A DNA stretch of 64,000 nt, taken from positions 124,001-188,000 of the forward strand of contig NZ_SDWV01000003.1 of assembly GCF_004137345.1 (NCBI RefSeq), read 5' to 3'. The position numbers and the translations under genes are program-made. The DNA is from Nocardioides zhouii (lineage in GTDB: Bacteria > Actinomycetota > Actinomycetes > Propionibacteriales > Nocardioidaceae). Numbering within the stretch: the stretch's first letter is position 1; each line of letters opens with the position of its first letter. The notes beneath the pieces are model-generated. The model saw nothing but the letters and a program-made list of their open reading frames with translations. It ran no database searches and was not told the origin of the DNA. Shown here piece by piece: positions 35,034 through 38,765 of the stretch.

Positions 35034-35684
35034 GTGATGCCCGCAGACCTGCTCGAGCACGCGCGCGCGGCCAAGGGCTTCATGCCCGAGGACGAGGGCG
35101 CGCTGCTGCACCGGTGGGCGCGCGACCGGCTGCCGCACGGCCCAGCACTCGAGGTCGGCACCTACTGCGGCAAGTCGGCGATCTGGCTCGGGGCCGCCGC
35201 CCGCGAGGTCGGCGGGACGGTCTTCACCGTCGACCACCACCGCGGCTCGGAGGAGAACCAGGCCGGCTGGGAGCACCACGACGACAGCCTCGTCGACGCC
35301 GACCTCGGCGTGATGGACACCCTGCCGACCTTCCGGCGCGCGATCCGCAACGCCGGGTTGGAGGAGCAGGTCGTCGCGGTCGTCGGGCGCTCGGAGGTCG
35401 TGAGCCGCTGGTGGCGTACGCCCCTGTCGTTGCTCTTCATCGACGGCGGGCACGGCGTCGAGCCGGCCCGCTCCGACTTCCGCGGCTGGGCGCACCACGT
35501 GATGGCGGACGGCGTGCTGGTCATCCACGACGTCTTTCCCTACCCGGCCGACGGCGGCCGCCCGCCGTACGAGGACATCTACCTCCCGGCGCTGGCGAGC
35601 GGCGCGTTCACCGAGGTGGACGTCGTCGGCTCGATGCGGGTGCTACGCCGTACGTCGGGCGAGGCCGGCGACCCGCTCACCTGA
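35034..35684 (+). CDS. Class I SAM-dependent methyltransferase (Methyltransf_24 type)
   Basis: Protein of 216 aa. SAM-binding motif I is [16 protein letters not shown] (about 40-55). An acidic residue ends strand 2 in [34 protein letters not shown] matches the Methyltransf_24 core shared with cephalosporin-hydroxylase-like and macrocin O-methyltransferase-like enzymes. Substrate unknown. GTG 35034 (followed by ATG) is 6 nt after TAGGCT (35022-35027), so leaderless. The 3' end overlaps the convergent toroid gene by 42 nt. Confidence 0.85.
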
Positions 35685-36764
35685 CGCGCAGCCGCACTCC
35701 AGGCCGATCTCGGCGAAGTCAGGAGCAAGGGTCGTGCCGCGCATGATGTCGGCGCCGGGCGTCGTGTCGGACAGGGCGTCCACGGCCAGGATCACCGCCG
35801 CGGCGGTGTACGTCGTCTGCTCCCCCGGCCAGTTCACGCCCACCTCGTCGACATCTGTGGGGAAGACGTAGCCGGTCCAGTAGGACCCCTCGTCGGTGCG
35901 CAGGTGCTGCATGTCGGCGAGCAGCCGCAGCGCCCGGTCGCGGTCGCCGATCGCCTCGAGCGCCAGCACCAGCTCGCACGTCTCCGCGCCGGTGACCCAC
36001 GGGTTGGCGGAGACGCAGCGGATGCCCAGGCCGGGCTCGACGAAGGTGCCCCACCGCTCGGCGAGCAGTGCGTACGCCGCGTCGCCGCGGACCGCGCCAC
36101 CGAGGACGGGGTAGTACCAGTCCATCGAGAAGGTCGACTTGTCCAGGAAGAGGTCGCGGTGCTCGCGCAGCGCGTGGCCCAGCCGCCCGCCGGCCAGCTC
36201 CCACTCGACCTGCGGCTCCCCCACCAGCTCGGCCATCGCGACGCCGGCACGGAGCGAGTGGTGGATGCTCGACGACCCGGCGAGCAGCGCCTCCTCGTTG
36301 ACCGACGCAGGGGCGCCGTCGCGCCACTCCTGCGACCACGCGATGCCGCCGAACGGCAGCTGCAGGGACACGACGTGGTCGAGCGCGCGCCGCACCGTCG
36401 GCCACATGAGGCGTACGAACGCCGCGTCGCGGGTGACCAGCCAGTGGTGCCACGTGGCGACCGCGACGTACGCCGTCATGTTGGACTCGCCGGAGTGGTC
36501 CTCGACCTCGCCGGCGACGATCTTCATCGGCCACGAGCCGTCGGCCCGCTGGGTGTCGCGCACCCACGCGAACGCGCGCTCCGCGGCCTTGCGGCGGCCG
36601 CCGACGAGCAGCCCCATCGCGGACTCGAGGTGGTTCCAGACGTCGGTGTGCTCACCGCGCGACCACGGGATCGCCCCGGACGGCTCCTGGACGGCCTCGA
36701 TGGACGCGGCGGTCTGCTCGACCTGCGCCCGGGTGAGGATCCCGTCGAGCGACGGGACCGTCAC
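35643..36764 (-). CDS. Alpha-alpha toroid protein, annotated-style prenyltransferase
   Basis: Protein of 373 aa made of helical repeats with [16 protein letters not shown] and similar QxxDGSW-like blocks seen in terpene cyclase/protein-prenyltransferase toroids. No DxDD or zinc-ligand set of a true cyclase or prenyltransferase is visible. Segments such as [21 protein letters not shown] and [10 protein letters not shown] also recall (alpha/alpha)6 glycosidases. Function is therefore open. GTG 36764 overlaps the methyltransferase stop (GTGA), and the gene is the last of the GT4-methyltransferase-toroid operon. Its 3' end overlaps the plus-strand methyltransferase. Confidence 0.75.
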
Positions 36765-37507
36765 GCGACCGGCTTCTGGAAGTAGAGCACCAGGCTCTTG
36801 CCGATGAGTGGGTCGAGGACCTTGCCGACCAGCTGCAGAGAGCGCGGGTTCTCCATGATCTCCCGGACCAGGAGCTTGTGGTACCCCTTGGCGAGCGGAT
36901 GGTCGTCGTTGGTGACACCGACCGCGCACTTGATCCACCAGTAGGGCGCGTGGAGGCCGTGGGCGTAGCCCTTGCCGGTGAAGACCATCGCGTCGCCGGG
37001 GGTGCCGTCGTTGGCGCGACCGGCCTTGGTCACCTTGTCGACGAGCTCCTCGGCCGTGTAGATCCGGACGTGGCCACCCTCCGCGTTGTGGTAGTCGTCG
37101 GAGAGCTTCCAGTTGATCACCTCGGGCAGCCACCGCGGCACCGAGACCGCCAGCGTGCCGCCGGGGCGCAGCACCCGCACCAGCTCCTTGATCGCCGCGA
37201 CGTCGGCGTGGATGTGCTCGAGCACCTCGGCCGCGACGATGCGGTCGAACTCGCCGTCGGCGAAGGGCAGCGCGAGCGCGTCACCCTCCTTGACGTCGGC
37301 CTCGGCGCCCGCGGGCACCTCCCCGGCGTCACGCATGGCGGCGAACCACTCCCGTACGGTCGCGAGCTCGTCGGCGTCCTGGTCGAACGCGATGACGTCG
37401 GCGCCCCGCTTGTACATCTCGAACGCGTGCCGGCCGGCTCCGCAGCCCATGTCGAGCACGCGGTCGCCCGGGCGCAGCCCGAGCCGGTCGAAGTCAACGG
37501 TCAGCAC
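36761..37507 (-). CDS. Class I SAM-dependent methyltransferase (Methyltransf_11 type)
   Basis: Protein of 248 aa. Motif I is VLDMGCGAGRHAFEMYKRG (about 18-36), followed by VIAFDQDADEL, the acidic residue that binds the SAM ribose. FDRIVAAEVLEHI and LVRVLRPGGTLAVSVPRW are motifs II-III. GTG 37507 lies within the end of the glycosyltransferase gene (14-nt overlap) behind GAGGAG, so it is translationally coupled. Likely acts on a lipid or small-molecule product of the neighbouring GT4; inference only. Confidence 0.87.
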   Translation of the reverse strand: MLTVDFDRLGLRPGDRVLDMGCGAGRHAFEMYKRGADVIAFDQDADELATVREWFAAMRDAGEVPAGAEADVKEGDALALPFADGEFDRIVAAEVLEHIHADVAAIKELVRVLRPGGTLAVSVPRWLPEVINWKLSDDYHNAEGGHVRIYTAEELVDKVTKAGRANDGTPGDAMVFTGKGYAHGLHAPYWWIKCAVGVTNDDHPLAKGYHKLLVREIMENPRSLQLVGKVLDPLIGKSLVLYFQKPVA

Positions 37508-38765
37508 GGCGCTGCTCCTCGCTGGTGCGCTGCTCGATCTTGAAGGCGGCGATGGTCTCCTCGTAGGCGGCGGCGGTGGCCTCGGCCACGGCGCGCCAGC
37601 TGAACAGCTCCTGCACGCGGGCCCGGCCCGCGGTGCCCATGCTCGTACGTCGCTCGGGGTCGTCGAGCAACGCGGCGATCGCCGACGTCAGCTCGCCGAC
37701 GTCACCGGGAGTCACCAGGTCGGCGCAGACGCCGTCCTCGCCCACGACCTCCGGGATGGCGCCCGCCCGCGACACCACGAGCGGCGTGGCGCAGGCCATC
37801 AGCTCGGCGGTGGGCAGCGAGAAGCCCTCGTAGAGCGACGGCACGCAGGCGAGCTCGGCGGACCCCATCACCTCGACGAGCTCCTGGTCGCTGACCCCGC
37901 TCACGAAGCTCACCCTGTCGACGATGCCGAGGTCGTCGATCAGCCGCTCGGTGCGGCCGCCGGGCTCGGGCCGGGTGACCAGCACCAGCGAGACATCGCG
38001 CTCGACGCTCAGCTTGGCGAAGGCCTCGAGCAGGGTCGCGATGCCCTTCATCGGCGCGTCCGCGCTGGCCATCGCCAGGATCCGGCCGGGCACACGAGGT
38101 GCGGTCGGCGGCACGAAGACGTCGTCGACCCCGAGCAGGATGGTCTGCATCCGGGCCGGGTCGACGCCGAAGTCGCGCGCGATGTCGCGCCGCGACGAGT
38201 CGGACGGTGTGAGGACCTTGCGCAGCCGCTTGGCGACCCTGGTCTGCATCCTCAGGAAGCCGTACCACCGGCGCAGCGTCAGCCGCTTGCGCCAGTTCGG
38301 CGCCGTCTGCAGGTCGATCTGCCGGTCCATCGTGATCGGGTGGTGGATCGTGGCGATGACCGGCAGGCCGAGGGCCTCCAGCTCCAGGATCCCGGTGCCG
38401 AGCACCTGGTTGTCGTGGGCGATGTCGAAGTCGCCGGCGCGCTCCTTCATCAGTCGCGCGATCCGCGTGCTGAAGGTCTTCGGCTCGGGGAAACCGGCCG
38501 CACACATGGTGAGGAACTCCTCGACGTCGATGAGGTCGCGGAACTCCCGCAGGTGCGGCACCCGGAACGGGTCGGGCTCGCGGTAGAGGTCGAGGCTGGG
38601 CACCTCGGTCAGCCGGACGCCCTCGTCGAGCTCGGGATAGGGCTGGCCGGAGAAGACCTCGACGTCGTGCCCGAGGCGGACCAGCTCGCGACTGAGGTGA
38701 CGGACGTAGACGCCCTGGCCGCCGCAGTGCGGCTTGCTCCGGTAGGACAGCAGGGCGATGCGCAC
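37494..38765 (-). CDS. Glycosyltransferase family 4
   Basis: Retaining GT-B glycosyltransferase of 423 aa. The N-terminal acceptor domain has HCGGQGVYVRHLSRELVRLGH, the glycine-rich loop of GT4. The C-terminal donor domain has the EX7E-type motif within VPSLYEGFSLPTAELMACATPLVV. The sugar donor cannot be read from sequence. GTG 38765 is 6 nt after CATAAT (38772-38777, minus), the best -10 in the window, next to a palindrome. First gene of a three-gene operon with a methyltransferase and a toroid protein. Confidence 0.9.
   Translation of the reverse strand: MRIALLSYRSKPHCGGQGVYVRHLSRELVRLGHDVEVFSGQPYPELDEGVRLTEVPSLDLYREPDPFRVPHLREFRDLIDVEEFLTMCAAGFPEPKTFSTRIARLMKERAGDFDIAHDNQVLGTGILELEALGLPVIATIHHPITMDRQIDLQTAPNWRKRLTLRRWYGFLRMQTRVAKRLRKVLTPSDSSRRDIARDFGVDPARMQTILLGVDDVFVPPTAPRVPGRILAMASADAPMKGIATLLEAFAKLSVERDVSLVLVTRPEPGGRTERLIDDLGIVDRVSFVSGVSDQELVEVMGSAELACVPSLYEGFSLPTAELMACATPLVVSRAGAIPEVVGEDGVCADLVTPGDVGELTSAIAALLDDPERRTSMGTAGRARVQELFSWRAVAEATAAAYEETIAAFKIEQRTSEEQRRADR

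Follow-up and report, generated by a model that had tools for sequence, protein, structure and literature searches.

A four-gene locus in a 64,000-nt stretch of the Nocardioides zhouii genome (contig NZ_SDWV01000003.1, positions 124,001 to 188,000; hereafter the window) encodes orthologues of the cluster for 3-O-methylmannose polysaccharide (MMP) described by Maranha et al. (2023; PMC9883506), and we put the probability that it is this cluster at about 0.93. The assignment rests on homology, conserved catalytic residues, fold, gene order and co-occurrence, and we infer from the known system the activities of the enzymes, the presence of the polymer in the Nocardioides host and its role as an acyl carrier. 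The assembly that holds the window measures 4.6 Mb and is 99.86% complete. The chemistry is already known, and the host group is one for which no report was found in the literature searched. The survey in the main text of Maranha et al. covers mycobacteria and a few relatives, and the word Nocardioides does not occur in that text. Our own literature search, which left most subscription journals outside, found neither a paper joining methylmannose and Nocardioides nor any later study of MmpH or ManT.

The meT1 product matches 6g7d, which we take to be the MeT1 structure, with a phmmer E-value of 2.9e-73. The products of mmpH and manT match 7qsj (E 2.7e-124, about 55-56% identity) and 7qsg (E 2.1e-158, with 61% of aligned pairs identical), and these are the MmpH and ManT depositions as given in the text of Maranha et al. 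(2023; PMC9883506). The original prediction, made from the DNA letters, had described an operon for a methylated glycolipid or glycan that fitted no named pathway, and had named homologues in a characterised cluster as the finding that would speak against it; the two matches place the operon in precisely such a cluster. Pfam assigned generic domains to the genes of the window and gave no match above cut-off for the toroid protein; it was the solved structures that settled the identities. The middle gene is read as pmeT3 because it occupies the place of the putative 3-O-methyltransferase (pMeT3), a position fixed between manT and mmpH. Its product carries a Methyltransf_11 domain (Pfam, E 2e-20) and is 55-59% identical to the product of the gene in the same position in the six loci fetched from family f5, a family that the MmpH tree places with 7qsj; a close relative was not found among solved structures (best match E 7.6e-13). 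In M. hassiacum the order is ManT-pMeT3-MmpH-MeT1 (MHAS_04402 to 04405), as reported in the text of PMC9883506. The window has the same order, with all four genes together. A GT4 enzyme, methyltransferases and a glycosidase would also fit a new pathway whose methylated product is a glycolipid of the surface or a glycan of the cell wall, but the best solved match of every gene except pMeT3 is an MMP-cluster protein (6g7d presumably being MeT1) and the order whose conservation we measured belongs to the four known MMP genes. Orthology to the MMP cluster thus rules out a new pathway, for which we would concede hardly any probability; of the earlier proposal the methylated glycan stands and the glycolipid of a new pathway falls.

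The fold of the toroid protein leads to the same cluster. It had been predicted to resemble a cyclase, a prenyltransferase or an (alpha/alpha)6 glycosidase, with structure prediction proposed as the means to choose, and NCBIfam does give weak matches in the direction of terpene chemistry, one to oxidosqualene cyclase (E 6.9e-4) and one to squalene-hopene cyclase (E 0.024). However, the AlphaFold2 model (mean predicted local distance difference test score, pLDDT, 89.5) found the chains of 7qsj as its best Foldseek matches, with a query TM-score (TMq) of 0.89 and a root-mean-square deviation (rmsd) of 1.3-1.6, followed by another glycosidase at TMq 0.64-0.67, while the terpene cyclases among the matches listed reached only TMq 0.51-0.56. 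Sequence (the 7qsj match and its identity given above) and fold rule out a terpene cyclase or prenyltransferase, which retains practically no probability; the toroid protein is a glycosidase.

The arrangement of the locus (Table 1) bears out the prediction of a three-gene overlap, by 14 nt between manT and pmeT3 and by 4 nt between pmeT3 and mmpH, and of a second, convergent methyltransferase gene overlapping the last gene: meT1 shares 42 nt with mmpH.

Table 1. Genes and upstream elements of the probable MMP locus, in window coordinates
Feature	Positions	Strand	Description
manT	37494-38765	-	Orthologue of GT4 GDP-mannose-dependent alpha-(1->4)-mannosyltransferase, 423 aa, GTG start
pmeT3	36761-37507	-	Class I S-adenosylmethionine (SAM) methyltransferase, putative 3-O-methyltransferase, 248 aa
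mmpH	35643-36764	-	MMP hydrolase, orthologue of (alpha/alpha)6 alpha-(1->4)-endomannosidase, 373 aa
meT1	35034-35684	+	Orthologue of 1-O-methyltransferase, 216 aa, convergent with mmpH
CATAAT	38772-38777	-	Probable -10, 6 nt before the GTG of manT
CTACTGACCGGTAG	38779-38792		Palindrome directly upstream of the -10

Conservation was followed in two samples of loci, the 80 best toroid relatives in named genomes (Nocardioidaceae-type; 74 of the 80 titles are Nocardioides, Marmoricola or Aeromicrobium) and 58 class-wide loci with MmpH, one of which (L171) shares its genome with L084 in the first sample. One locus, L119, whose stretch was wrongly chosen, was excluded from the residue, tree and colinearity counts, and L126, being without MmpH, gave no reading. 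The closest toroid relatives are 90-91% identical. ManT, pMeT3 and MmpH are colinear in 77/80 Nocardioidaceae-type loci, the other three beginning inside the core at a contig end, and in 58/58 class-wide loci; the gene set is therefore conserved far beyond chance, and the original prediction of a single operon holds. The meT1 gene accompanies the core in 78/80 Nocardioidaceae-type loci, on the opposite strand every time, and 69 of the 75 loci measured have it within 500 nt of mmpH; of the 58 class loci, 54 show it in the fetched stretch (opposite strand 45, same strand 9). The loci with meT1 and mmpH on the same strand are L135-L140, all from genus g2 of the window's family and carriers of fatty acid synthase I (FAS-I), together with L125, L148 and L149. 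The two genes also occur together across genomes: among 394 genomes of the class, the window's own included, strong matches (E cut-off 1e-20, which excludes 4/193 MmpH and 7/194 MeT1 matches) were found to MmpH in 189, to MeT1 in 187 and to both in 187, so that two genomes with strong MmpH lack a strong MeT1 match (a weak one being present in one of the two) and none has strong MeT1 without MmpH.

The catalytic residues agree with the assignment as well. In the aligned chains 11/11 MmpH and 10/10 ManT residues named in the paper fell on the stated amino acid. The residues G15, H142, K240, E313 and E321 of M. hassiacum ManT are all kept in the window; G15 is identical in 76/76 and the other four in 77/77 readable loci of the 80-locus set, and all five are identical in 38/38 readable loci of a 39-locus class set. 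In the window MmpH both the base E262 (E261 here) and the putative acid D47 (D41) are preserved. Over 151 distinct proteins (160 readable loci minus 9 repeated genomes) the base is E in every one, and D47 is D in 150 and E in one.

Several points weigh against the assignment. In two of the 80 loci, L042 and L077, no meT1 was found within the fetched stretch. The pMeT3 protein is a putative 3-O-methyltransferase in the text of PMC9883506 too. Finally, the active site of the window MmpH differs from that of M. hassiacum at D50 (N44), W315 (Y319), F102 (M96) and T163 (A162), and the exact substrate or methylation pattern may therefore differ. We did not take D50 and W315 as defining, because position 50 carries N in 114 of the 151 proteins, in loci with the same synteny, and D in the other 37.

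Positions 50 and 315 co-vary (N-Y 109, N-F 4, N-W 1, D-W 36 and D-Y 1; n=151), and in the 76-row MmpH tree the starred branches require two or more changes at position 50, with parsimony giving three. This joint shift of the hydrolase pocket would suit an MMP-like but chemically different methylated mannan, made or cut with other methylation, acetylation or length, and Streptomyces griseus does make an acetylated MMP. Such a polymer is a variant of the MMP reading and compatible with it. Against it stand the conserved D47/E262 pair and ManT residues, and the family f20 loci, presumed to be Streptomyces-like, which are of the D-W type in 4/4 readable of 5 fetched, so that acetylation does not explain the N-Y type. 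We consider a different mannan a possibility on the unlikely side, and keep to MMP itself. According to the text of PMC9883506, the D47A and D50A mutants of MmpH each lost most activity and either residue was left as the possible acid; D47 is marked as putative in a figure legend there, and D50 may serve catalysis or sugar recognition. The natural D50N enzymes offer a simple way to decide between the two aspartates as catalytic acid. Asparagine cannot serve as a general acid, which points to D47, provided that the N-type enzymes are active.

MMP and 6-O-methylglucose lipopolysaccharide (MGLP) are described in the literature as proposed regulators of FAS-I on the basis of in vitro work, with their role in cells doubted. 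FAS-I (PF08354) is absent from the window's own genome (0/1) and from its genus (0/20, with MmpH in 20/20), so this host appears to have no FAS-I for the polymer to regulate; the same search matched, among 14 control genomes, Corynebacterium glutamicum alone. The FabH-type family PF08545 of fatty acid synthase II (FAS-II) has two matches in the window's genome. In the class, FAS-I exceeded the cut-off in 51/394 genomes (one match below it, in G330, is not counted): 38 have MmpH and FAS-I, 151 MmpH without FAS-I, 13 FAS-I without MmpH and 192 neither. Within the window's family, genus g2 has both in 12/12 genomes and g4 has FAS-I without MmpH in 2/2. A tight link between MMP and FAS-I was not found, with 151/189 MmpH genomes lacking FAS-I and 13/51 FAS-I genomes lacking MmpH. 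The cluster can therefore occur without FAS-I, which is not needed for carrying it; a partial link, in some lineages, is possible, as MmpH is commoner in genomes with FAS-I (38/51 vs 151/343; odds ratio 3.7; Fisher p 7e-5, uncorrected for relatedness). The main hypothesis ties the role of MMP to FAS-I, and the FAS-I-free genomes with the cluster, Nocardioides among them, would allow a direct test. We regard these hosts and the D50N enzymes as the useful parts of the finding.

The CATAAT that had been predicted as the -10 of the leader gene is present, and neither strand of the window holds another CATAAT or any TATAAT. Its end lies 6 nt ahead of the GTG, which would give a leaderless or nearly leaderless mRNA. 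A sigma-70 scan of positions 34000-42000 gave no promoter-like site, hence no -35 hexamer backs the CATAAT. The adjoining palindrome CTACTGACCGGTAG, a probable regulator-binding site, has one site in the window against a shuffle mean of 0.01. Such a palindrome followed at once by CATAAT recurs in 21 (20 exact, one with an outer base changed) of the 75 Nocardioidaceae-type loci whose region upstream of manT could be read, and these 21 loci are among the nearest relatives of the window. CATAAT stands 6-7 nt before the start in 10 of the 21 and 33-49 nt before it in the other 11, where a GAAAGG ribosome-binding-like site precedes the start. A second operator type, a CATAAT-like -10 followed by a palindrome centred on AACACGTT, was found at manT in 30/75 readable loci, an apparent exchange of operators at the same operon. 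Loci of this type lie between L024 and L083 (for example L025, L033 and L082); their palindrome follows the -10, whereas the CTAC-GTAG one precedes it, and L082 and L083 also carry a related upstream palindrome. Even with up to 2 mismatches allowed, the AACACGTT pattern was not matched anywhere in the window's genome, and it was therefore dropped for this organism.

The CTACTGACCGGTAG palindrome has 8 sites in the window's genome. Three same-letter control patterns have 5, 1 and 4 sites, but 7 and 14 were counted for the reversed controls of the second and third, so the number of sites by itself says little. By a mechanical rule, that a predicted open reading frame (ORF) starts 1-45 nt downstream, 7/8 palindrome sites pass (10-43 nt before the ORF start) and 2/10 control sites do (1/5, 1/1 and 0/4), the controls being few and one of the three patterns, that with 5 sites, being biased, since it contains ATG/CAT in its own letters and a looser rule could pass some of its sites. 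The eighth palindrome site, L179, would satisfy the rule only with an in-frame ATG about 25 nt away as the start codon. Among the neighbours of the palindrome are an ABC operon that has an MlaE permease (L179), a PgfA/PorA-family protein, a TetR-type gene, and aceE, with an ORF and an AMP-binding acyl-CoA ligase forming a divergent unit; not all are lipid-related, as acetolactate synthase and an S15-type hydrolase show. That a common regulator might serve lipid-related genes through this palindrome is a weak idea. A divergent pair of a GT4 gene and a class I methyltransferase gene with a manT-type promoter palindrome was seen elsewhere in the same genome (L187, 2615-4581, contig C1).

Taken together, MMP may be a widespread FAS-I-free acyl carrier of actinobacteria that is placed, in the window's genus, under a palindrome-binding regulator, a joint proposal that we hold tentatively and with rather more doubt than confidence. 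The polymer would buffer acyl-CoA or acyl-ACP (acyl carrier protein) from FAS-II or lipid uptake, and the regulator, possibly of TetR type, would be shared with the MlaE-type ABC operon, the PgfA-like envelope-lipid protein and the aceE unit with its divergent acyl-CoA ligase. If this is true, the FAS-I model describes some hosts only.

By transfer from M. hassiacum, ManT would extend oligomannosides by alpha-(1->4)-mannose with GDP-mannose as the donor, the putative pMeT3 (putative in mycobacteria too) would methylate O3 of each new unit, and MeT1 would cap the reducing-end O1. MmpH would cut mature MMP internally into primers, and the cell would thus copy MMP from MMP. The expected product is a short methylated helix, cytoplasmic and able to hold acyl chains.

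Elsewhere in the window, two similar Sulfotransfer_2 proteins are encoded at 28068-28709 (+) and 29443-30087 (+), and the ORF between them (28722-29402, -) looks sulfotransferase-like by eye, with no Pfam match at E 0.001. A secreted-looking M43 (pappalysin-like) metalloprotease lies at 30166-31116 (-), and a small membrane-anchored protein at 40368-40862 (-) appears Mce-associated-like by eye, also with no Pfam match at E 0.001.

Among known systems, GH63 mannosylglycerate hydrolase has its fold in common with the toroid (TMq about 0.60) but only 14-15% identity and another substrate, and GH15 and GH125, named in the text of PMC9883506, are likewise (alpha/alpha)6 glycosidases of the same fold with other substrates. 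Mycobacterial MGLP, as presented in PMC2674218 and PMC4555173, is also polymethylated and a proposed binder of acyl chains; however, its pathway is glucose-based and its enzymes differ from those of MMP. The mycobacterial MMP cluster (M. hassiacum / M. smegmatis, in the text of PMC9883506) has the four orthologues, their order and the catalytic residues of ManT and MmpH in common with the window. In contrast to it, the Nocardioides locus has N44/Y319 in place of the D50/W315 of M. hassiacum, a host without FAS-I and a leaderless-type promoter with a palindrome, and its genes overlap, unlike their matches in the six f5 loci.

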